Positions 42,748-53,427 of a stretch of 64,000 nt of DNA are shown here, piece by piece. The DNA lies in assembly GCF_007997035.1 (NCBI RefSeq), contig NZ_VOSS01000019.1, positions 1-64,000 of the forward strand, written 5' to 3'. The notes under the pieces are model-generated. The model saw nothing but the letters and a program-made list of their open reading frames with translations, searched no databases and had not been told where the DNA came from. The stretch comes from Ralstonia sp. TCR112. GTDB taxonomy: Bacteria > Pseudomonadota > Gammaproteobacteria > Burkholderiales > Burkholderiaceae. The position numbers and the translations under genes are program-made. Position 1 is the first letter of the stretch, and each line of letters begins with the position of its first letter.

Positions 42748-43509
42748 ATGCGCTACGCCAACAAAGTCCTTCCCGTGGACGAGGCCATCGCCCACGTCCG
42801 CAGCGGCAGCCGCCTGATGCTGGGCGAATTCGTGGGCGCCGGCGAGCCGGCCTGCTGCATCGAGGCGCTGCTTGCCAGCGGCATCGGGCAACTCACGCTG
42901 ATCACCAACACGCCGGGGCTGCGCGGCGGCTTTCTCAAAGCCCGGCTGTTCAGCTCGGGCCAACTGGCCGAGTTCATCGGGACGCACGTCGGCACGACGG
43001 ACGAATCGACGCAGGCTTACCTGACCGACTCCGTGCGCGTAGCTGAGTTCTTTCCGATGGGCACCTGGGCGGAAAAAGTGCGCGCGGGTGCGCTGGGCCT
43101 GGGCGGCGCCCTCGTGCCGGTGGGCGTGGGCATCCTCGACCAGCCCGGAATGTTTCCCAAGCGCGGCGCCCCCAAGCAGACGCTCACCGTCGACGGCACG
43201 ACGTGCTTCGTCGAGCCGCCCCTGCGCGCCGACGTGTCGATCATCAAGGGCTGGCGCGCCGATACCTTCGGCAACGTGGAGTTTCGCGGCACGGCGCTGC
43301 AGAACCAGCGCGACATCGCCATGGCCGGCGACTACACCATCGTCGAGGTGAACGAGATCGTCGAAGTGGGCACGATTCCGCCCGAGCGCGTCGGCTGCCC
43401 GGGCGTGTTCGTCAATGCGGTGGTGCAAGGGCTGTCGCTGCAAGACCAGCATGCGCTCTACAAGCACCACTGGACGAAGCTCGGCCGCCTGCCCGCTGCC
43501 GAAGCGTGA
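42748..43509 (+). CDS. 3-oxoacid CoA transferase subunit A-like
   Basis: The 253-residue protein has the family I CoA-transferase alpha-subunit core: VRSGSRLMLGEFVGAGEP, LTLITNTPGLRGGFLKA, VGVGILDQPGMFPKRGAP and NVEFRGTALQNQRDIAMAGD. A good ribosome site (CAGGAGACAACC) precedes ATG. It pairs with the next gene, whose start is 29 bases further on. Acid specificity is not known. Confidence 0.9.
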   Translation: MRYANKVLPVDEAIAHVRSGSRLMLGEFVGAGEPACCIEALLASGIGQLTLITNTPGLRGGFLKARLFSSGQLAEFIGTHVGTTDESTQAYLTDSVRVAEFFPMGTWAEKVRAGALGLGGALVPVGVGILDQPGMFPKRGAPKQTLTVDGTTCFVEPPLRADVSIIKGWRADTFGNVEFRGTALQNQRDIAMAGDYTIVEVNEIVEVGTIPPERVGCPGVFVNAVVQGLSLQDQHALYKHHWTKLGRLPAAEA

Positions 43510-43537
43510 TCGTCAGACCCACAACAAGGAGACCGCC

Positions 43538-44212
43538 ATGCAAGCCCTGCCCGAAACGCCCAAGCAACGCATTGCCGCCCGCTGCGCGCTGGAACTGCGC
43601 GCCGGCGAAGTCGTCAACCTTGGCTTGGGAATCCCCACGCTCACGGCCAACTACCTGGACGCCAATGCCGGCGTCATCTTCCATACCGAAAACGGCGCCT
43701 TCGGCTTTGGCGGACGCCCGCCGCTGGACGCCATCGACAGCGACTTCACCAACGCCGGCTGCGAGCCCATCACGCTGATGCCAGGCGCGGCGCTCATGGA
43801 CCTCGCCACCTCGCTCGGTGCAATGCGCAACGGCTACATCGACGTGACGATCCTCGGCGCGTTGCAAGTGGACGCGCTGGGCAACCTCGCCAACTGGGCG
43901 TGCGATCGCAACGGCAAATGGTGGCCGGGCATTGGCGGGGCAATGGACCTCTGCTACGGCACGCGCAAGGTGATTGCCGCGCTGGCGCACACCGACAAGC
44001 ACGGCAATTCCAAGATCCTGCCGCGCTGCACGCTGCCGCTCACGGGCCGGGGATGCGTGAAGGTCATCGTCACCGAGCACGCCGTGTTCGACGTGACCGA
44101 CGCGGGGCTGGTGCTGCGGGAAATCCTCTCGCATGCGACACTCGACGACATTCGCGCCATGACGGCAGCGCCCTTCACGCTGGCGCCGCTGCTGCAGATG
44201 CGCGCCGCCTGA
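43538..44212 (+). CDS. 3-oxoacid CoA transferase subunit B-like
   Basis: The 224-residue protein has VVNLGLGIPTLTANYL and the catalytic glutamate in FHTENGAFGFGG, then GYIDVTILGALQVDALGNLAN. These are family I CoA-transferase beta-subunit motifs. The ribosome site AAGGAGACCGCC precedes ATG. It follows subunit A in the same operon as an isomerase and a Crp-type regulator. Confidence 0.92.
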   Translation: MQALPETPKQRIAARCALELRAGEVVNLGLGIPTLTANYLDANAGVIFHTENGAFGFGGRPPLDAIDSDFTNAGCEPITLMPGAALMDLATSLGAMRNGYIDVTILGALQVDALGNLANWACDRNGKWWPGIGGAMDLCYGTRKVIAALAHTDKHGNSKILPRCTLPLTGRGCVKVIVTEHAVFDVTDAGLVLREILSHATLDDIRAMTAAPFTLAPLLQMRAA

Positions 44213-44221
44213 GGAGACGCC

Positions 44222-44856
44222 ATGCCCACCACCGTCGATTGGTTCTTCGATGTCATCTCGCCGTTTGCCTATCTGCAGCTCGAACAGTTCGATGCGCTGC
44301 AGCAGGCGAACGACATCGTCATCCGCCCGCGCCCACTGGTGCTGGGTGCGATCCTCCATCACTGGGGGCAGAAGGGCCCGGCGGAGATCACCTCCAAACG
44401 CGTGTTCACGTATCGGCATGCGCTGTTTCGCGCGCAGCAGCTCGGCATTCCGTTTCGCATGCGCCCGCGCACCCGTTCAACCCGATCAAGGCATTGCGGC
44501 TGACGATTGCGATGGGCGGCTCGCTCGACGCCGTCCGGGCGGTGTTCCGGCATATCTGGCGCGACGGCAACGATGTGGCGTCGCCGGAGGGCTTTGCCGC
44601 GCTGTGCGAGGCGGTCGGCTTTGCAGAAGGCGCCACCGCTGTCGAACAACCGGCCGTGAAAGACGCGCTGCGTGCGCACACCGATGCGGCCATCGCGCTC
44701 GGCGTGTTCGGGGTGCCCACGCTGGTGCACGACGGCGAGCTGTTCTGGGGAGAAGACGCGACCGACATGTTCCTGCAGAGCCTGCGCGCTGGCTGGCTCT
44801 CCACGCCCGAAGCGCAGCGCGTGAGCACGCTGCCGGTGGGCATTCAACGTGGCTGA
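44222..44856 (+). CDS. 2-hydroxychromene-2-carboxylate isomerase-like (DsbA fold), frameshifted
   Basis: The N-terminal part reads VDWFFDVISPFAYLQLEQF, the glutathione S-transferase kappa/HCCA isomerase start with the active-site serine. The frame is lost near 44464, and the remainder appears as LDAVRAVFRHIWRDGNDVAS to FGVPTLVHDGELFWGEDATD. Adding one C restores RMRPAHPFNPIKALRLTIAM, so a single-base deletion is likely. Length would be about 211 residues. HCCA-type enzymes act in aromatic catabolism; the substrate is not known. Confidence 0.82.
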
Positions 44857-45553
44857 GCACGACACCAGCTCGCGCCCCGGCATCAGCCGCGCACGGCTGG
44901 CGCATATCGCGGCGTGGTCCATCGATCTGCCCGCGGAAGAAGCCGACCGCGCCTGTGCCGGCATCGTTGAGAAAACCTACGCGCGGGGCGCCTGCATTTG
45001 CCCGAAAAACACGTTGCTGGAGAGCTGGACGGGCGTGGTGACGGGCCTCATCAAGATCGGCACGGTGTCGCCCGAAGGGCGCAGCGTCACGTTTACGGGC
45101 GTGCCGGCCGGCGGCTGGTTTGGCGAAGGCACGGTGCTCAAGAACGAGCCGCGCCGCTACGACATCGTTGCGCTGCGCGACACGCGCATGGCCTTCATGG
45201 ACCGCACCACCTTCATGTGGCTCGTTGAAAACAGCGTCGCGTTCAACCGCTTCCTGGTGAAGCAGCTCAACGAGCGGCTCGGGCACTTCATGGCGCTGCT
45301 GGAATACGACCGGCTGCTCGATGTCACGCCGCGCCTGGCGCGTTGCATTGCATCGCTGTTCAACCCGGTGCTCTACCCGGGCGCGGGCGACCACCTGGAG
45401 ATCACGCAGGAAGAACTCGGCCTGCTTTCCGGCATGACGCGGCAGGTGGCCAACCAGTCGCTCAAGGCCCTGGAGAAGGACGGCGTGGTGCGGCTCGAAT
45501 ACGGCGGCGTGACGGTCGTCGACCTCGATCGGCTGCGCAGCTACGGCGCCTGA
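44849..45553 (+). CDS. Crp/Fnr-family transcriptional regulator
   Basis: The 234-residue protein has an N-terminal cyclic-nucleotide-fold domain (LIKIGTVSPEGRSVTFTGVP and GGWFGEGTVL) and a C-terminal helix-turn-helix with ITQEELGLLSGMTRQVANQSL. Fnr-type iron-sulfur cysteines are absent (only CAGI and CICP), so it is not an oxygen sensor. The start is GTG, overlapping the isomerase gene, so it is cotranscribed and likely regulates the CoA transferase operon. Confidence 0.85.
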   Translation: MAEHDTSSRPGISRARLAHIAAWSIDLPAEEADRACAGIVEKTYARGACICPKNTLLESWTGVVTGLIKIGTVSPEGRSVTFTGVPAGGWFGEGTVLKNEPRRYDIVALRDTRMAFMDRTTFMWLVENSVAFNRFLVKQLNERLGHFMALLEYDRLLDVTPRLARCIASLFNPVLYPGAGDHLEITQEELGLLSGMTRQVANQSLKALEKDGVVRLEYGGVTVVDLDRLRSYGA

Positions 45554-45713
45554 AGACGCCGCTTTTATTAACGAATCTTCATCCGGCAGAGCAAGCCGCA
45601 CCCGCTAGAATCGCGGCACAACAAGACAAGATCATTACGCTGCGGCATGCGCCCCGCGCCGCCCGCAGCCGGAAGAGGGAACAGGGCATCGCACCATGTG
45701 CGTGCCTGCATCT

Positions 45714-46700
45714 ATGCTGCCGATTCATCTGCTTTCCACCGGCAAGGCGCTGCCGGAGCAACAAGTCACGTCCGCTGAACTGGATGCCCGCCTCGGCCAT
45801 CGGGCTGGGTACGTGCGCAAGAAGTCCGGCATCGACGTCCGCCACCATGCCACGCTGACCGAGCATCAGTCGGAACTCGCCGGCGCCGCCGTGCGCGATG
45901 CACTGCGCCGCGCCGATGTTCCGGCCGCGTCCATCGACCTGTTGATCTCCGCCTCGGGCGTGCAGGAACAGGCGCTGCCCAACACGGCCGCGCGCGTCCT
46001 GGAGCCCGCCGGGCTGCCAGCCGGCACGCCCGCGTTTGACGTCAACGCCAGTTGCCTGAGCTTTCTCACGGCGCTGCATGTGGCAAGCAGCCTCCTGACC
46101 ACGGGAGCGTACAAGCGCATCGCCGTGGTGGCGTCCGACCTCGCCTCGCGCGGCATCGATTGGGACGACGCCGAGACCGCATTGATCTTTGGCGACGGGG
46201 CAGCGGCGGTCATCGTTGAAGCGGCACCGTCGATATCCGGCGCGGGCATCCACGCCTACCGCATGGAGACCTACCCCGCCGGCAAAACCTATTGCGAAAT
46301 CCGCGCGGGCGGCACGCGCCGCAACCCGCGCACCGGCGCGCAACCGACCGATTACCTGTTCCACATGGACGGCAAGCGCGTATTCAAGCTCGCCTCGCAA
46401 CTGATGGACGGTTTCCTCGATCGGCTGTTCACCGGCAGCCAATACACGCTGAGCGACATGCATGTCGTCGTGCCGCACCAGGCGAGCCACCTGGGGATGC
46501 AGCATCTGCGCAAGCGGTTGGGCGTGCCGGAAGCCAGCGTGGTCGATATCTACGCGCAGCACGGCAACCAGGTAGCCGCGTCGATTCCCACCGCGCTGCA
46601 TGAAGCCGTGACGACCCAACGCATCGAGCCCGGCAAACCGGTTCTGCTGGTCGGCACGGCGGCCGGCCTGACGCTCGGCGGCATGGTGCTGACGCTATGA
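45714..46700 (+). CDS. 3-oxoacyl-ACP synthase III (KAS III/OleA-like thiolase fold)
   Basis: The 328-residue protein contains the triad: cysteine near residue 114 in FDVNASCLSFL, histidine in VVPHQASHLGM and asparagine in YAQHGNQVAAS. This is a FabH-type condensing enzyme. It could condense acyl-CoA/acyl-ACP with malonyl-ACP or with another acyl-CoA as OleA does; it cannot be told from sequence. It is the first gene of a seven-gene operon with overlapping starts, so it probably makes the backbone of an unknown lipid product. The start at MLPIHL matches the fold better than a codon six residues upstream. Confidence 0.85.
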   Translation: MLPIHLLSTGKALPEQQVTSAELDARLGHRAGYVRKKSGIDVRHHATLTEHQSELAGAAVRDALRRADVPAASIDLLISASGVQEQALPNTAARVLEPAGLPAGTPAFDVNASCLSFLTALHVASSLLTTGAYKRIAVVASDLASRGIDWDDAETALIFGDGAAAVIVEAAPSISGAGIHAYRMETYPAGKTYCEIRAGGTRRNPRTGAQPTDYLFHMDGKRVFKLASQLMDGFLDRLFTGSQYTLSDMHVVVPHQASHLGMQHLRKRLGVPEASVVDIYAQHGNQVAASIPTALHEAVTTQRIEPGKPVLLVGTAAGLTLGGMVLTL

Positions 46701-47710
46701 CGACGCTGGTGACGGGCGCCACCGGTGGGCTCGGCCGCAACGCGGTCGACGCACTGCTCGCGCAAGGCGCCCGCGTGCGCGCGACGGGGCGCGATGCCAC
46801 GCAACGCGACGCCTTTGCCGCCCGTGGCGCAGACTATGTGCCGGCCGACCTGGCACAGCCGACAGCGGCCACGCTGGATGCGCTGCTCGACGGTGTCGAC
46901 ACGGTCTGGCATTGCGCGGCGCTGTCATCGCCCTGGGGCGCGTATGCGGACTTCTACGCGGCCAATGTGCGCGCCACGGCGGCGCTTGCCGAAGGTGCCG
47001 TCAAGCATGGCGTCCGCCGCTTCGTGCATATCTCCACGCCGTCGATCTATTTCGACTACCAGCATCACGCCGATCTGCCCGAGAACTATCGTCCTGCGCG
47101 CTTCGCCAATCATTACGCGGCGACGAAGATGCTGGCAGAGGCGGCCATCCAGCAGCAGGTCGCCACGCAGCACCGCACGCACTTTGTCATCCTGCGGCCG
47201 CGCGGGCTGTTCGGCCCGCATGATCGCGTGGTACTGCCGCGCATCCTGCACTTGCTGGAGCTGCGCGGCGGCGTGCTGCCCCTGCCCCGTGGCGGCGCGG
47301 CGCGCATGGACCTGACGTATCTGGAAAACGTGGTGCACGCCATGCAGTGCGCCACCAGGGCGAGCGTGCCTTCCGGCGCCGCTTACAACATCACCAACCA
47401 TGCGCCGGCCACGCTGCGCGATCTGCTCGATCAACTGCTGGCGCAGCAGCTCGGCCTGCGTTATCGCGTTCGCGCAGTGCCGTATCCCGCGATGGCATTG
47501 GCCGCACGCGCCATGGAAGCCGGCAGCGCCGTCACGCGTCGCGAGCCGCTGCTCACGCGCTACAGTGCCGCCGCGCTGCACTACGACATGACGCTCGCCA
47601 ACGACCGCGCGCGCATCGAACTCGGCTACGTGCCGCCCATCGACATGGCCGAAGGCATCCGCCGCACGGCTCACTGGTTACGTGAACATGGCAACGTTGT
47701 CCGTTTTTGA
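46697..47710 (+). CDS. NAD(P)-dependent epimerase/dehydrogenase (extended SDR, OleD/3-beta-HSD-like)
   Basis: The 337-residue protein has the dinucleotide motif TLVTGATGGLGRNAVDALL and the catalytic Tyr/Lys in ANHYAATKMLAE (YxxxK), plus FVILRPRGLFGPHD. These features are shared with 3-beta-hydroxysteroid dehydrogenase-like and OleD-type beta-ketoacid reductases. It would reduce the keto product of the KAS III enzyme. The start overlaps the previous stop by four bases. Confidence 0.87.
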   Translation: MTTLVTGATGGLGRNAVDALLAQGARVRATGRDATQRDAFAARGADYVPADLAQPTAATLDALLDGVDTVWHCAALSSPWGAYADFYAANVRATAALAEGAVKHGVRRFVHISTPSIYFDYQHHADLPENYRPARFANHYAATKMLAEAAIQQQVATQHRTHFVILRPRGLFGPHDRVVLPRILHLLELRGGVLPLPRGGAARMDLTYLENVVHAMQCATRASVPSGAAYNITNHAPATLRDLLDQLLAQQLGLRYRVRAVPYPAMALAARAMEAGSAVTRREPLLTRYSAAALHYDMTLANDRARIELGYVPPIDMAEGIRRTAHWLREHGNVVRF

Positions 47711-48493
47711 AGCCGGGTACTGCACGCATACCGCGTGTGTGGCGCTGCGCGGCGCGGGCCTGCGCACCTGCGCGTTTCCCGCACGCGCCTGGCTGATCGA
47801 AGCCGCCGGGCGGCGCTGGCTGTGGGACACGGGCTATGCCTCGCATTTTCATGACCACACGCGCAGCGGCTTGTTTGCGATCTACCGCAAGGTCACTCCG
47901 GTGTATTTTGATGCGTCGGAATCCATGGCGGCGCAGCTCGCGCAACAGGGCGTGCGCCCAGCTGATCTGGACGGATTGATCGTCTCGCATTTCCACGGGG
48001 ACCACGTTGCCGGCCTGCGCGACTTTCCGGGCGTGCCGTCATCTGCTCCGGCGAAGGATGGATGCACCTGCGCGCGCTGCGCGGTGTTTCCGCGTTGCGG
48101 CGCGCTTTCGTGCCCGGGCTGATTCCCGAAGATTTTGAAACGCGCACGCGCTTTGTCGAACAGTTCGAGCAAGTCGCGCTGCCGCCGGAGTTGGCGCCAT
48201 TCACATCCGCCTGGGCCGTGCCCGACAGCAACGGCGACGTGCTGCTCGTGCCGCTGCCCGGCCACGCCGCCGGACACCTCGGCGCGTTCGTGCGCACGCA
48301 GGAAGGCTGGGTGCTGCTGGCCGCCGACGCCGCCTGGTCGCCGCTGAGCTATCGCGAACTGCGCGGGCCATCGGTATTGGCGTATTCGATCATGGAAGAC
48401 CGCCATGCCTACTTCGACACGCTGCGCAAGCTGCACGCGCTCGATGCGGGCGGCCACGTGCGCATCCTGCTCACACACGAGGGGGCGTTGTGA
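47688..48493 (+). CDS. Metallo-beta-lactamase-fold hydrolase, frameshifted
   Basis: The zinc motif is HFHGDH (in LIVSHFHGDHVAGLRDF) and the later metal residues are in LLVPLPGHAAGHLG and AADAAW. The frame breaks near 48037; one added base restores VPVICSGEGWMHLRALRG. Length would be about 269 residues. It lies in the lipid operon and could hydrolyse a thioester or lactone intermediate. It overlaps the reductase gene by 23 bases. Confidence 0.82.
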
Positions 48494-49800
48494 CGGCGTT
48501 GCACCGCCTGCTGTGGTCGTACTGGCAAACGCGCCGGCTGCGGCTGCCTGATCGCGCCGCGCTGGAAGCGCACCAGCAGCGGCAGATCTCGCGCTTCACG
48601 CAACGCGTGCTGACTCGCAGCCCGTATTTCCGCCCGTTCGCATCGAAGCCGATGCACGAATGGCCGTTGATGGACAAGGCCACGATGATGGCCAATTTCG
48701 ACGCCATGAACACCGCCGGCCTGCGCCTGCACGACGTGCTGGCCTGCGCGCAACAGGCCGAGCAGTCACGCGATTTCCGGCCGACGGTCGGGGCGTATTC
48801 GGTGGGCTTGTCATCTGGCACCTCCGGCGGACGCGGCGTATTCGTTGTAAGCCCGACCGAGCGCGCGCAGTGGGCCGGCATCCTGCTCGCCAAGCTGCTG
48901 CCGCGCGGGCTGTTGCACGGCGAGCGCGTCGCCCTGTTCCTGCGCGCCAACAGCAATCTGTACACGGCCGTGCGCAACCCGTGGCTGACGTTTTCATTCT
49001 TTGATCTGTTTGCGCCGTTCGAATCGCACCGCGCGCCGCTGGAAGCATTGCAGCCGACCATCATCGTGGGGCCGGCGCAGGTGCTGCGTGCGCTTGCCAT
49101 GGAGAAGCTTGCCGGCCGGCTCGGCATCGCGCCCGTGCAGGTGTTGTCCGGCGCCGAAGTGCTGGAGCCGATGGACCGCGCACTGCTTGCACAGGCTTTT
49201 GGCAACGTCGGCGAGGTCTACCAGGCCACCGAAGGCTTTCTGGGCGCGACCTGCGCGCACGGCACGCTGCACTTGAACGAGGCGCACGTGCACATCGAGC
49301 CGCAATGGCTGGACGCGCACCGCTTCGTCCCCGTCATTACCGATTTCACGCGCAGTACGCAGCCCATCGTGCGCTACCGGCTGGATGACATCCTCATCCG
49401 CCGCGACCCGGCGCTGGGCGCTTGCCCCTGCGGCAACCCGGCGATGGCCATCGAGCGCATCGAAGGCCGCTGCGACGATACGCTCGTCCTGCCCGCGCTG
49501 GGCGGCGGCACTGTCACGCTGTTTGCCGACGTGTGTTCGCGGGCGCTGGCACAGGCGCTGCCGCTGCATGCGGATTACCGCCTGGTGCAGACCGATGCGA
49601 ACACGCTGGCGTTGTCCATTCACCCGGCCGACGCCGACATTGCGCGCGCGTGCCGGGCGCACCTGGCCGATGTCTTCGCCTGCCAGGGCGTCGATGCATC
49701 GCGCGTGACGTGGCACGCCACACCCGAGCGCATCGCCACCGATTTCACCACCAAGCGCCGCCGCATCGTCCGGCTCGCGGCGCCGGGAGCGGCACGATGA
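48490..49800 (+). CDS. Adenylate-forming enzyme related to F390 synthetase/PaaK
   Basis: The 436-residue protein shows the ATP-binding loop SSGTSGGRGVF, a PaaK-like core RPTVGAYSVGL, and a C-terminal lid region with CPCGNPAMAIERIEGRCDD, as in PaaK and F390 synthetase-like proteins. It would activate a carboxylate with ATP. The start is GTG, overlapping the previous stop. Its place in the operon suggests activation of the acid made upstream. The substrate is not known. Confidence 0.8.
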   Translation: MTALHRLLWSYWQTRRLRLPDRAALEAHQQRQISRFTQRVLTRSPYFRPFASKPMHEWPLMDKATMMANFDAMNTAGLRLHDVLACAQQAEQSRDFRPTVGAYSVGLSSGTSGGRGVFVVSPTERAQWAGILLAKLLPRGLLHGERVALFLRANSNLYTAVRNPWLTFSFFDLFAPFESHRAPLEALQPTIIVGPAQVLRALAMEKLAGRLGIAPVQVLSGAEVLEPMDRALLAQAFGNVGEVYQATEGFLGATCAHGTLHLNEAHVHIEPQWLDAHRFVPVITDFTRSTQPIVRYRLDDILIRRDPALGACPCGNPAMAIERIEGRCDDTLVLPALGGGTVTLFADVCSRALAQALPLHADYRLVQTDANTLALSIHPADADIARACRAHLADVFACQGVDASRVTWHATPERIATDFTTKRRRIVRLAAPGAAR

Positions 49801-50420
49801 GCCCGCTTGCCACGCGCCTGCGCCATATGGCCTTGGGCTGGTGTTCGGTGGGCCTCGTCTATGGTCTCTGCGGAGCGCTGCAAGGCGTTGGCACGATCGT
49901 GCCCGAGACTGCACTGGACCGCGCCATTCCGTTCAGCACGTCGGGCATCTGGCTGTACCTGTCGTTCTTCGTGCTGATTCCGCTGGCGTATCTGCGGGCC
50001 GACATGTCGCGCCTGCCTTGGCTGGAACGCGCCATGCAGATGAGCGCGCTCGTGAGCGGTGCGGTGTTCATGCTGTGGCCGACCACGCTGCACTACCCGC
50101 CGTTGGCGGATGCATCGTTGCCCGGCAGCGTGCAACGCATGCTGATCGCCATGGATTCGAGCCAGAACTGCCTGCCCTCGCTGCATGGGGCGCTTACGCT
50201 GCTCTCGGTATGGGCGCTGGCGGATTCGCGCAGGCCGATGCGCACAGCGCTCGCCGCAGCCTGGGGGCTCGGCATCCTGTACGCCACGATCCAGACGCGC
50301 CGGCACGTCGCACTTGACCTGTCGGCAGGCGTGGCCGTGGGCGTGCTGTGCGGCGCGGCTGTCCGTCTATGGTTGGCGCGGCGCGCGTCAACGCTCTCCA
50401 TCGAACCGGTGTCCACATGA
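49797..50420 (+). CDS. PAP2-superfamily membrane phosphatase/transferase
   Basis: The 207-residue protein has about five membrane segments. The PAP2 motifs C2 (NCLPSLHGA) and C3 (TRRHVALDLSAG) are present, but the C1 K-x6-RP motif is not evident. This pattern is seen in PAP2-like lipid phosphotransferases. It would remove phosphate from, or transfer a head group to, a lipid. ATG overlaps the preceding stop by four bases. Confidence 0.78.
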   Translation: MSPLATRLRHMALGWCSVGLVYGLCGALQGVGTIVPETALDRAIPFSTSGIWLYLSFFVLIPLAYLRADMSRLPWLERAMQMSALVSGAVFMLWPTTLHYPPLADASLPGSVQRMLIAMDSSQNCLPSLHGALTLLSVWALADSRRPMRTALAAAWGLGILYATIQTRRHVALDLSAGVAVGVLCGAAVRLWLARRASTLSIEPVST

Positions 50421-51547
50421 ATGCCTTCGCCTTGCCGCTTGCATTGATGCTCGGCTGCGTGCTGCTGGAACTGGCTGCGCTCAAGTGGTGGCGCGGCCAA
50501 CCGCTGCCGTGGCGCGACGTCATCCTCAACCTCAACTCCGGCCACGTGCTGATGTGGCTGTGCCGCGGCGTGGAAGTCGCGGGCTTCACGTGGCTATATG
50601 CCCATGCCAGCTTGCATTGGGTAGATGGCTGGCACCCGGTTGCGGGCTGGGCCTTCGCGTTTGTCGCGTGGGATCTCGGTTTCTACTGGCTGCACCGCAT
50701 GCACCACAAGCTGGGCTTTCTGTGGGCGATCCATGCCGTGCATCACGAAGGCGAGCATTTCAACCTGTCGCTGGGCGTGCGCAACGCTTGGCTGTCGTCG
50801 CTCACATCGCTGCCGTTCTTCGTGCCGCTGGCGCTGTTGGGGGTCACGCCGGAAATGTTCGTGGCGGTGTCAGGCCTGCATTACTCGGTGCAGTTCTACA
50901 ACCACTGCGGACTGGTCGGCCGCTCGGGCGTGCTCGACCGCTTCATGGTCACGCCCGCCAACCACCGCGTGCATCATGGCTGCAACCCGGAATACATCGA
51001 TCGCAACTTCGGCGGCACGCTGCTGCTGTGGGACAAGCTGTTCGGCACCTATCAGCGCGCGCTGGCCGACGTGCCGATCCGCTACGGCGTGCACAAGCCC
51101 ACCCACAGCGACAACCCGTTCTGGGCCAACGTGGTGCCGGCATTGCAGTGGCTGGGGCTGCGCACGCCGCATTTGCAACGCGATACGCGCACCACGCCCG
51201 CCGGCTGGATCGCCACCGGCGGTGTGCTGCTGTTTGGCGTGGTGATCGACTATGTGCGCACCGACGGCCTGTGGCCCGGGCACTGGCAAGCGGCCTGGTT
51301 CGCGCTCATCCTGCTGCTCACGCTGGCGCTGGGCGGTTTGTCGGATGGGCGCGGCTGGGGACGCTGGCTTTGGCCGTTGCTGGCGCTTGCGCTGCCCGTG
51401 CTGATGATCGGCATATGCGGCGCGGGCGATGCAATGTCCGACACGTTGGCCGTTGCGCTCGGGTTGCATGGTCTTGCTTGCGGACTGTGGCACGCGCTGC
51501 GGACCGAATCGCCGCTCTCTTCGTCGCCGCATGCCGAATCTCGCTAA
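50417..51547 (+). CDS. Sterol desaturase/fatty acid hydroxylase superfamily membrane protein
   Basis: The 376-residue protein has several membrane segments and the di-iron histidine motifs HRMHH, HAVHHEGEHFN and HRVHHG, in the order of the fatty acid hydroxylase superfamily. Such enzymes hydroxylate or desaturate lipid chains or alkylglycerols using oxygen. It overlaps the PAP2 gene by four bases. The C-terminal 130 residues are extra membrane segments. Confidence 0.88.
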   Translation: MNAFALPLALMLGCVLLELAALKWWRGQPLPWRDVILNLNSGHVLMWLCRGVEVAGFTWLYAHASLHWVDGWHPVAGWAFAFVAWDLGFYWLHRMHHKLGFLWAIHAVHHEGEHFNLSLGVRNAWLSSLTSLPFFVPLALLGVTPEMFVAVSGLHYSVQFYNHCGLVGRSGVLDRFMVTPANHRVHHGCNPEYIDRNFGGTLLLWDKLFGTYQRALADVPIRYGVHKPTHSDNPFWANVVPALQWLGLRTPHLQRDTRTTPAGWIATGGVLLFGVVIDYVRTDGLWPGHWQAAWFALILLLTLALGGLSDGRGWGRWLWPLLALALPVLMIGICGAGDAMSDTLAVALGLHGLACGLWHALRTESPLSSSPHAESR

Positions 51548-52622
51548 GCTCCGCTACGCTTCACCGCGCTCCTCGTCGCTGGCCGAGGATTTGCGCCGTA
51601 CCGCGCACGACCACCTGCAGGCGCACGGCGACCATCGCTTTGCCGATGTGCAGTTCATTGCCAAGGGCACCCTGCTCGTTGTGGTATCCGCGCTGCTGTA
51701 TGGCGTCATGATGACGGCCACGGGTGCGACGACATTCGTGCTCGCCTACATGGCCTTTCCGTTCATCGCGATGCTGCTGGCCATGAACGTGCTGCACGAC
51801 GGCGCGCATCGGGCGCTCTCCCCCTGGGCATGGCTGGACCGCCTCATGACGCGTGTGACCGCCATCCCGCTCGGCGTCGAACCGGCCTACTGGACGGTGC
51901 GCCACGTGCACTATCACCATGCGCATGCCAACGTGGAGCACTACGACCTCGACACCGCTGCAAACCGCTTCCTGCGGCAGACGCCCTTTCAGCCGTGGTA
52001 TCCGCAGTTTCGCTATCAGCACCGCTACTGGCCACTGATTGCCGCACTGTCGCTGCCGTACATCAACTGGATCTACGACTGGTCGGATCGCCTTGGCCTC
52101 ACGCCGCTGGCGGCGGATCGCGTGTTGCCCGGCCTGCGCGGCTGGGCGACGTTCCTGCTGGCGAAGGCGTTGCACTTGCTCATTGCGGTAGCGGTGCCCG
52201 CGTGGGTGGCACATCGGCTCGGCCTCGGCTGGGGCTGGGTGGTGTTCAGCTACTTCGCAGGGCAGATGCTGGCGTCATGCGTGCTGGTCGCGTTGATCCT
52301 GGGCACACATTGGGCAGACGTGACGTTCTATCTGCCACCCGAATCGGGCCAGCTGCCGCACACGTGGCACGAGCATGCATTCCACACCGCGTGCGACTGG
52401 CAACCGCAACCGGCGTGGATCGGCTACTGGCTTGGCGGCTTGAACTGGCACCTGACGCATCACCTTTTCCCGACGTATAGCCACCGGCACTATCCGGCGC
52501 TGGCAGCGCGTGTGGCCGAGGTGGCGCGCGCCCATGCGCTCGACTACCGCGCACTCACCTACCGCGAGTTGCTGACCGCGCAGCAGACCTTCCTGCGCGC
52601 CATGGGCCAACGCCCGAACTAA
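51531..52622 (+). CDS. Membrane fatty acid desaturase
   Basis: The 363-residue protein has the three desaturase histidine boxes HDGAH, HVHYHHAH and HLTHH, with four predicted membrane segments. It is the last gene of the lipid operon and overlaps the preceding gene by 17 bases. It would introduce a double bond or hydroxyl group in a lipid. A short gap follows, then a convergent hydrolase. Confidence 0.88.
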   Translation: MPNLAKLRYASPRSSSLAEDLRRTAHDHLQAHGDHRFADVQFIAKGTLLVVVSALLYGVMMTATGATTFVLAYMAFPFIAMLLAMNVLHDGAHRALSPWAWLDRLMTRVTAIPLGVEPAYWTVRHVHYHHAHANVEHYDLDTAANRFLRQTPFQPWYPQFRYQHRYWPLIAALSLPYINWIYDWSDRLGLTPLAADRVLPGLRGWATFLLAKALHLLIAVAVPAWVAHRLGLGWGWVVFSYFAGQMLASCVLVALILGTHWADVTFYLPPESGQLPHTWHEHAFHTACDWQPQPAWIGYWLGGLNWHLTHHLFPTYSHRHYPALAARVAEVARAHALDYRALTYRELLTAQQTFLRAMGQRPN

Positions 52623-52644: not shown

Positions 52645-53427
52645 TCAGTTGCGCGCCTCGACCGCGTGCACCGCGTCGAGAATCACCTTTGCCACATCCT
52701 GCGGCCGCGACTGCTGCGGCACGTGGCTCGTCGGCAGTGTCGTCACCTTGGCGCCAATCTTCCTGGCCATGGCGCGTTCCAGATCCGGCTGGATCATGCG
52801 GTCGTGCGCGCTGACGATGAACCACGACGGCTTGCTGTGCCATGCCGCCACCGTGGTGCGCTCCCCAAATGCCGTGGCCTTGATGGGACCTTGCGTCGCG
52901 GCCATCACGCGTGCCTGCGCGGCGGGCACATCCTGCGCAAAGTCGCTCGCCAGCGCCGCAGCGGGCAGTGACAGATAGCCGTTGGCGTCAGCGACGAGCT
53001 TGCCGATGCCCGGCGCGGGCGCGTAGTCCTTGCCCACCTCTTCCGTCGACTGGCCAGCGTCCGGCGCAAACGCCGCCACATACACGAGGCCGGCAACCTT
53101 GCTGTCCGCGCCGGCTTCGGTGATGACCGTGCCGCCCCACGAGTGCCCCACCAGCATGACCTTGCCCGGCTGGTTGCCGATGGCGCGGCGCGTGGCGGCC
53201 ACGTCGTCGGCCAGCGAGTTCAGACCGTTCTGCACCGCCTGCACCTTCACGCCCTTGGCCTGCAGCAGCGGGATCACCTTGGCCCAGTCGGATCCATCGG
53301 CAAAGGCGCCGTGCACGATCACGACGGAAGGTTGATCGGCGTCGGCTGCCGTGGCGGCCAACAGGGGCGCACTGGCGGCCATGCCAAGTGCCAGCACTGC
53401 GATGGAGACGGCTTTGCGGTTGAACAT
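52645..53427 (-). CDS. Secreted alpha/beta-hydrolase
   Basis: The 260-residue protein has a signal peptide (FNRKAVSIAVLALGMAASAPL) and the nucleophile elbow VGHSWGGTVI, an oxyanion segment VIVHGAFADGSDW, and a C-terminal SAHDRMIQPD and TSHVPQQSRP with Asp and His. This resembles the small-molecule esterase or dienelactone-like group. The substrate is not known. It converges with the desaturase operon. Confidence 0.85.
   Translation of the reverse strand: MFNRKAVSIAVLALGMAASAPLLAATAADADQPSVVIVHGAFADGSDWAKVIPLLQAKGVKVQAVQNGLNSLADDVAATRRAIGNQPGKVMLVGHSWGGTVITEAGADSKVAGLVYVAAFAPDAGQSTEEVGKDYAPAPGIGKLVADANGYLSLPAAALASDFAQDVPAAQARVMAATQGPIKATAFGERTTVAAWHSKPSWFIVSAHDRMIQPDLERAMARKIGAKVTTLPTSHVPQQSRPQDVAKVILDAVHAVEARN

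Follow-up and report, generated by a model that had tools for sequence, protein, structure and literature searches.

The window analysed here, 64,000 nucleotides of Ralstonia sp. TCR112 (contig NZ_VOSS01000019.1), carries on its forward strand, at 45714-52622, seven overlapping genes for a condensing enzyme, a reductase, a hydrolase, an adenylate-forming enzyme and three membrane enzymes. They very probably form a dedicated biosynthetic operon of lipid type, with a core that builds and exchangeable modules that tailor. An initial annotation, made from the sequence alone, had given the coordinates and gene calls of the operon, and these hold on re-reading of the sequence and in domain scans:

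45714-46700, forward strand: ketoacyl synthase III (KAS III)-like condensing enzyme, with a triad C114, H255 and N285 numbered from 45714.
46697-47710, forward strand: extended short-chain dehydrogenase/reductase (SDR) of NAD-dependent epimerase/3beta-hydroxysteroid dehydrogenase type; nearest named family OleD 2-alkyl-3-oxoalkanoate reductase, below cut-off.
47688-48493, forward strand: metallo-beta-lactamase (MBL)-fold hydrolase of acyl-homoserine lactone (AHL)-lactonase/4-pyridoxolactonase type, frame-shifted near 48040, its fold taken from an intact relative.
48490-49800, forward strand: F390 synthetase-related adenylate-forming enzyme (hereafter the F390 enzyme), over the TIGR02304 cut-off and of PaaK fold.
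49797-50420, forward strand: small PAP2_3/PAP2 membrane phosphatase or phosphotransferase, just below the Pfam cut-offs, with H130, H170 and D174 invariant.
50417-51547, forward strand: membrane enzyme of the fatty acid hydroxylase/sterol desaturase superfamily, with conserved His boxes; nearest named family OlsE, below cut-off.
51531-52622, forward strand: membrane fatty acid desaturase (PF00487), with conserved His boxes.

The KAS gene has an alternative in-frame ATG upstream at 45696. Overlaps of 4 to 23 bases had been noted at every junction, and so they are found: 4 bases for KAS-SDR (46697-46700), 23 for SDR-MBL (47688-47710), 4 for MBL-F390 (48490-48493), 4 for F390-PAP2 (49797-49800), 4 for PAP2-hydroxylase (50417-50420) and 17 for hydroxylase-desaturase (51531-51547), with the identical series 4, 23, 4, 4, 4, 17 in the nearest relative, L063. 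In a survey of 110 loci, with start codons chosen by script and some genomes present twice, the measurable adjacent pairs share one base or more in 91 of 99 cases for KAS-SDR, 100 of 106 for SDR-MBL and 106 of 107 for MBL-F390 within the core, and among the tailoring genes in 70 of 80 for F390-PAP2, 62 of 78 for PAP2-hydroxylase and 35 of 37 for hydroxylase-desaturase. Since the same junctions overlap across the 110 loci, chance is not the explanation; overlapping junctions are a family trait.

Gene order tells the same story. A search with the F390 alignment, one genome per species, yielded at least 475 confirmed loci, of which the best 80, a set biased to close relatives, were kept and named. 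Rather than lying scattered in these, the four core genes KAS-SDR-MBL-F390 are contiguous in 76 of the 80 (not so in L077, L079 and L081, nor in L110, where the contig breaks off), and all seven keep the order of the window in 56. Overlaps and conserved order across relatives together bear out the tightly coupled, conserved operon of lipid type that had been proposed. All seven genes are under purifying selection, with median ratios of nonsynonymous to synonymous substitution of 0.04-0.11 (21 pairs each, from seven copies of the genus, the copy of the window not among them).

One gene call needs amendment. The metallohydrolase had been taken as a single gene, and in this assembly it is two open frames, 47682-48122 and 48062-48493, split by an indel near 48040, as comparison with a relative of 95.6% identity shows; the count of seven genes is right for the family, with one of the seven broken here. 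MBL copies from other loci are open in 107 of 107 cases and 260-291 amino acids long. Against that same relative there are 13 indels across 15 kb, of which 12 have lengths that are not multiples of three, and a DsbA-like gene at 44222-44856 of the window, presumably of the 2-hydroxychromene-2-carboxylate isomerase type, is likewise frame-shifted, near 44462. Because the DsbA-like gene carries another such indel, an assembly error is a plausible source of the MBL frameshift, and a real mutation is equally likely.

What accompanies the core was recorded in a census of 102 loci, from which L060-L067 were left out as near-duplicates and in which some genomes are still counted twice (e.g. L086/L171 and L145/L172). 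Labels came from tblastn with a self-made panel of labelled proteins, so that only panel genes carry a label, and at several loci (e.g. L083, L089, L095) an incomplete module stops at the edge of a contig. At 62 loci the core is accompanied by PAP2, hydroxylase and either one desaturase or two, whatever their order, and at another 10 by part of that module, several of these at contig edges. At 10 others (Paenibacillus, Pontibacillus, Rhizobium and Paraburkholderia among the hosts) it goes with ATP-grasp, GNAT or Rieske genes, a group that includes a Pseudomonas plasmid with the core genes spread out; three loci of this kind, from two phyla, have homologous ATP-grasp and GNAT proteins, at 34-42% identity. 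Four loci have GT21, two of them (Buttiauxella and Fusobacterium) with GT21 alone beside the core and two with PAP2, hydroxylase and desaturase as well, and three (Ketogulonicigenium, Paracoccus) have a divergent sulfotransferase. The modules around it thus differ among the 102 loci, and so the four-gene core is the constant unit and the remainder looks like exchangeable tailoring.

Some details of these modules may be added. The glycosyltransferase module (L123:11306-15204, L158:3258-5858, L111, L137) consists of an SDR, the GT21 protein (PF13506) and a protein of 194-215 amino acids that is 25% identical between Buttiauxella and Fusobacterium, and the enterobacterial versions also hold a GT1-like protein. 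On three Rhodobacterales plasmids (L151, L155, L159) the core adjoins a divergent TetR regulator along with the sulfotransferase. Five Xenorhabdus loci (L097, L100, L101, L102, L103) have the core and a PAP2-like gene upstream, with no hydroxylase or desaturase match nearby, and at three more, L084, L099 and L127, the core stands alone.

The condensing enzyme retains the Cys-His-Asn triad (C114/H255/N285) in all 103 rows of its alignment, duplicates included. Its best matches in the PDB are MxnB (4v2p, 4e-57), then CorB (4yuc, 2e-50) and then a FabH-type chain (4ryb, 5e-45). With the FabH model TIGR00747 it scores 214.7 bits, below the cut-off of 292.1, and with the beta-ketoacyl-ACP synthase III model PRK07204/NF005541 it scores 356, below 402, a cut-off that two of the five relatives whose core KAS was scanned, Pontibacillus (445) and Paenibacillus (425), do pass. 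Could it be an OleA, as an analogy with OleACD in the initial annotation would have it? The OleA hallmark is a glutamate followed by proline (Glu117 in X. campestris); just two of the OleA proteins aligned in the part of PMC7064751 available lack this glutamate. The corresponding KAS position, mapped through the equivalence of MxnB V94 with PpyS E105 in the available part of PMC4578411 and with V94 checked by its distance from C121, is Leu in 94 rows, Ile in 9 and Glu in none. As Leu or Ile, and never Glu, occupies the OleA/PpyS glutamate position in 103 of 103 rows, OleA membership was rejected; of the analogy there survives the reductase, whose best model is indeed OleD, below cut-off.

That best curated model gives the window SDR 159 bits, far below the cut-off of 580, and is also the best for the SDR of each of three relatives scanned (146-241 bits). 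In the MBL protein seven positions, which we take to be metal ligands, are invariant in 46 of 46 rows. A model of the intact Ralstonia copy L069 (pLDDT 90) has among its top 26 fold matches 24 titled as AHL or quorum-quenching lactonases or 4-pyridoxolactonase, the other two naming no enzyme; identities to the 26 are 18-23%, and scores lie far below each curated cut-off. The F390 enzyme of the window reaches 496.3 bits with TIGR02304 (cut-off 251.9), its NCBIfam matches at E 0.001 being limited to that model and DVU_1553, and the structures nearest to its model (pLDDT 90) are those of PaaK, NatL2 and similar ligases (TM 0.63). Conserved in its alignment are residues of what we take to be the adenylation motifs, a C-terminal lysine, and C255, H261, C312 and C314, which appear to resemble the zinc site of the PaaK-type family.

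Of the membrane enzymes, the PAP2 protein falls just short of its models (PAP2_3 26.6 bits for a cut-off of 27.0, PAP2 23.1 for 27.2), with H130, H170 and D174 invariant in 28 of 28 rows. The hydroxylase (PF04116, 100.5 bits) and the desaturase (PF00487, 85.1 bits) both pass their cut-offs, and their His-box columns are conserved at 97% or more; sequence searches of the PDB with these two gave nothing at E 0.1. PAP2_3-type and GT21 enzymes elsewhere act on ceramide-type lipids, and GT21 we take to be the family of ceramide glucosyltransferase.

What might such a set make? A soluble core of four enzymes would build and activate an acyl backbone, which PAP2, hydroxylase and desaturase would tailor in the membrane, and every catalytic step that follows we infer from sequence and fold. 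The MxnB/CorB-like KAS would join an acyl thioester to a beta-ketoacyl or malonyl thioester, the most likely outcome being two chains fused to a branched beta-keto product, and the OleD-like SDR would turn the beta-keto group into beta-hydroxy. The lactonase-type MBL hydrolase would then free the acid by cleaving a thioester or lactone, and the PaaK-fold enzyme, to judge from its fold and conserved motif residues, would adenylate it and hand it over to an acceptor. The di-iron enzymes would, as their family membership suggests, desaturate and hydroxylate the chain in the membrane, and PAP2, with residues of catalytic type, would remove or transfer a phosphate-linked head. That two chains are fused to a beta-hydroxy acyl anchor, with membrane enzymes that desaturate, hydroxylate and add or remove a phosphate-linked head, is our tentative preference, held at well below an even chance. 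The two-chain reading is taken because the KAS lies near MxnB and CorB, the SDR is OleD-like, a hydrolase is followed by an acid-activating enzyme, and PAP2_3-type and, in relatives, GT21 enzymes accompany the core.

A good deal weighs against it. There is no known product of the operon. MxnB and CorB are themselves placed within the FabH clade in the available part of PMC4578411; the key position is Leu or Ile in the operon KAS, Val in MxnB/CorB and Phe in the FabH chain compared, and since FabH shares the triad and a hydrophobic residue there, this residue separates neither the KAS nor MxnB/CorB from FabH. Similarity to MxnB and CorB is thus no proof of two-chain chemistry. Open reading frames and a domain scan revealed no acyl carrier protein gene within the operon, and the domain scan of its proteins no pyridoxal phosphate-enzyme domain; as the operon has no enzyme like serine palmitoyltransferase, the comparison with ceramide is by tailoring families only. 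PaaK-fold relatives of known substrate mostly adenylate small aryl acids and not long-chain acids. The tailoring-family matches are themselves weak: the PAP2 profile reaches AUR1 and LpxE at no better than E 0.05, and the hydroxylase scores 78 bits with the OlsE model, whose cut-off is 475. To the broken MBL gene of the window may be added the census loci that depart from the pattern. Eight of the 102 have a core with no panel tailoring gene adjoining (L148 ends at a contig edge), and five have an incomplete core: L077 and L079, with a desaturase in the place of the KAS; L081 (Budvicia), with the KAS not in place; L110, cut by its contig; and L157, with the F390 gene and without the other three. 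KAS homologues do occur elsewhere in the genome for L077 and L079 (44% identity) and L081 (54%).

Could the KAS instead be a specialised FabH elongating one acyl or aryl starter, while the other enzymes reduce the product, release it, activate it anew and decorate it to give a fatty acid or alcohol that is hydroxylated and desaturated, and lipid-head-bound or secreted? This is possible, if on the unlikely side. A retained triad and 215 bits on the FabH model would suit it, as would hydroxylase and desaturase families that work on fatty chains, a desaturase number that varies between one and two and the small acids that PaaK-type enzymes usually take. It has to contend with nearest solved KAS relatives that are two-chain ketosynthases and not FabH, with an OleD-type reductase as the best curated SDR match, and with GT21 and PAP2 modules that suggest a lipid anchor bearing a head.

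The proximity to MxnB and CorB can also be taken more literally. In the available part of PMC5724707, MxnB joins two carrier-bound ketoacyl chains to a pyrone, and a KAS acting likewise would fuse two such chains to an alpha-pyrone, butenolide or related lactone, with the MBL protein, whose nearest folds are lactonases, editing or opening the ring and the membrane enzymes modifying the alkyl arms; the product would be a diffusible signal or antibiotic. We see a rather slim chance of this: the reductase and the adenylate-forming enzyme have no evident role in ring closure, the operon genes examined include no polyketide synthase, LuxR-type receptor or exporter, and PAP2 and GT21 fit a small diffusible lactone poorly.

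A beta-lactone or olefin route of Ole type, with the KAS as OleA, the SDR as OleD, the F390 enzyme as OleC and the MBL protein in place of OleB, would account for the best SDR model and for the same four reaction types within one operon. We regard it as very unlikely given a KAS in which the glutamate that nearly all of the OleA proteins aligned in PMC7064751 (in the part available) share is absent from 103 of 103 rows, an F390 enzyme of PaaK fold with no OleC-type match at E 0.001 in a library whose holding of an OleC model was left unchecked, and an olefin product that leaves PAP2 or GT21 no substrate. An operon that degrades or remodels, taking up and re-processing host or membrane lipids and making no new one, for which the MBL hydrolase, the PAP2 phosphatase, the acid-activating enzyme and a CoA-transferase pair upstream in the window could serve breakdown, is highly improbable, as the condensing enzyme and the two oxygen-using membrane enzymes are biosynthetic types and the annotated core-bearing records examined have other neighbours.

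To return to two chains on a beta-hydroxy anchor, the reading may be carried one step further, to a point at which it becomes distinctly unlikely and is offered as such: membrane lipids that resemble ceramides in having two chains and that are made without serine palmitoyltransferase, on a branched beta-hydroxy anchor with exchangeable head and chain modules, namely PAP2-hydroxylase-desaturase, GT21 glycosyltransferase, ATP-grasp/GNAT/Rieske and perhaps sulfotransferase. Were it true, such lipids would be carried unnoticed by gut, insect, plant and soil bacteria, among them about one in eight of the complete E. coli genomes.

The operon is well travelled. Hosts among the best 80 loci include Ralstonia, Cupriavidus, Burkholderia, Paraburkholderia, Comamonas and Snodgrassella, and also Pectobacterium, Serratia, Providencia, Xenorhabdus, Erwinia, Rahnella, Pseudomonas and Gilliamella. 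By megablast 672 of 5426 complete E. coli genomes have a match, 671 of them covering at least 80%, and E. coli Nissle 1917 carries an intact copy, at NZ_CM189242.1 2198673-2205554; the same search did not find the operon in the remaining 4754. The F390 protein of the window is 99% identical to that of Ralstonia sp. UNC404CL21Col. Counting the genome of the window itself, a TIGR02304 match over cut-off occurs in two of 274 genomes drawn from the class, and 10 of 398 sampled from the phylum have an F390 match at E 1e-40 or better: occurrence is sporadic. Phage origin was considered and rejected, since a search of 50,697 phage records at E 1e-5 gave no match to the F390 protein.

In the F390 tree, whose long-branch warnings fall mostly outside the beta/gammaproteobacterial part, classes are mixed: Pseudomonas and an Azoarcus bin lie inside the Serratia group, Snodgrassella alvi goes with Serratia liquefaciens (100/99) and Snodgrassella communis with Gilliamella (100/100). 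Some placements, such as those of the Azoarcus bin L095 and of Snodgrassella L108, depend on metagenome bins or draft contigs, where sequences may be mis-binned or contaminated. Because the tree mixes classes, there has apparently been transfer of the operon between them. S. communis belongs to the Neisseriaceae and Gilliamella, with which it shares an F390 branch, to the Orbaceae (loci L133, L139, L142; L108 and L098 for S. alvi and S. liquefaciens); provided that the draft contigs are clean, exchange between co-resident bee-gut symbionts is likely.

Within Ralstonia the comparison of flanks is instructive. These features adjoin the operon in the window:

44849-45553, forward strand: CRP/FNR-type regulator gene, the left flank, present in each of the 16 genomes of the genus that were examined.
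45544-45561, forward strand: stem and T-run resembling a terminator, where the CRP/FNR-type gene ends (weak evidence).
52645-53427, reverse strand: alpha/beta hydrolase gene, the right flank, adjoining the CRP gene in three operon-free genomes too.

TIGR02304 is over cut-off in 8 of those 16 genomes, a ninth match being partial and at a contig edge. In operon-free genomes the matched left and right flank stretches lie 125 (G011), 5 (G012) and 42 (G007) bases apart; in the other operon-free genomes of the genus the right flank is partly matched or not found and the sites are not clean. The operon in Ralstonia is a unit present or absent between fixed flanks. The upstream CRP/FNR gene was rejected as its dedicated regulator because operon-free genomes of the genus carry it too. 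As to the terminator-like site that separates this gene from the operon, such sites are not above expectation (3 found vs 5.3 expected). Further upstream, at 42886-44212, is a two-subunit CoA-transferase gene pair.

Elsewhere the setting differs. In E. coli and in 11 of 12 Serratia loci narGHJI precedes the operon in the same orientation, with narI about 0.1 kb away in E. coli and 0.3-1.1 kb away in Serratia, the loci concerned being L149:1-13066 and L098, L105, L106, L107, L112, L124, L128, L129, L131, L136 and L140; the twelfth, L120, has no narGHJI match within 3.9 kb upstream. There might be read-through from the anaerobic nitrate reductase operon into lipid enzymes that use oxygen. Between the operon and purU in E. 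coli are two tRNA-Tyr genes (L149:13066-13623; L225:9882-10439), a usual kind of insertion site, and RtT is also found in Nissle. The E. coli record L149 (NZ_CP141085.1) is labelled a plasmid, and as it bears narGHJI, purU, galU and hns, which are usually chromosomal, it is probably a chromosomal segment or a mislabelled record.

If the assignment is right, a conserved operon encodes a lipid or lipid-derived product in 672 of the 5426 complete E. coli genomes, probiotic Nissle 1917 included, and the operon is shared by Serratia, Pectobacterium, Providencia, Pseudomonas, Cupriavidus, Burkholderia and, in the bee gut, Snodgrassella and Gilliamella. That it has apparently moved from one bacterial class to another, bee-gut partners included, argues for a selectable benefit. 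The initial annotation knew of no named pathway for the set, and open PubMed Central full text likewise yielded no assigned product. Among the matches listed there, subscription papers and preprints being beyond its scope, no paper could be tied to the operon, and those listed on narI, purU and Nissle and on Pectobacterium, Serratia and uropathogenic strains, a small part of the papers matched, had nothing on it. The term F390 is absent from the available part of an enterobacterial secondary-metabolite survey (PMC9125672).

How does the operon stand beside systems that are known? Like OleABCD/OleACD, it combines a condensing enzyme, an OleD-like reductase, an adenylate-forming enzyme and a hydrolase; it differs in a KAS lacking Glu-Pro (0/103), a PaaK-fold TIGR02304 enzyme, three membrane enzymes and a hydrolase of MBL fold, where OleB is an alpha/beta-hydrolase (the neighbouring alpha/beta hydrolase is on the opposite strand and is also present in operon-free genomes). 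With MxnB and CorB, of myxopyronin and corallopyronin, the KAS shares the triad, a hydrophobic residue at the OleA glutamate position and a NASCLSF-like active-site stretch, whereas its partners are a reductase, a hydrolase and an adenylate-forming enzyme and not a polyketide synthase. The ladderane genes of anammox bacteria were rejected as a counterpart, being, in the part of PMC2649909 available, a different set, one that includes FabF paralogues as well as radical SAM enzymes.

The bacterial sphingolipid pathway resembles the operon in its SDR, lipid hydroxylase, desaturase and PAP2_3-type enzyme and, in relatives, in GT21 and GNAT, and is set apart by serine palmitoyltransferase and acyl carrier protein, neither of which the operon has; the Caulobacter sphingolipid genes differ in kind from those of the operon save for a dehydrogenase and an N-acyltransferase (PMC11324152, in the part available). 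To the AHL lactonases (AiiA, GcL, AhlX) and 4-pyridoxolactonase the MBL protein is akin in fold and in all seven metal-ligand positions, and distant from them in sequence and in its scores on curated models. The F390 enzyme is a full member of the TIGR02304 F390 synthetase-related family, for which open PubMed Central full text gave no tested function and whose name alone implies coenzyme F390 chemistry. What appears to be new here is the combination, each enzyme family being recognisable while the set fails the tests of the nearest named pathways.

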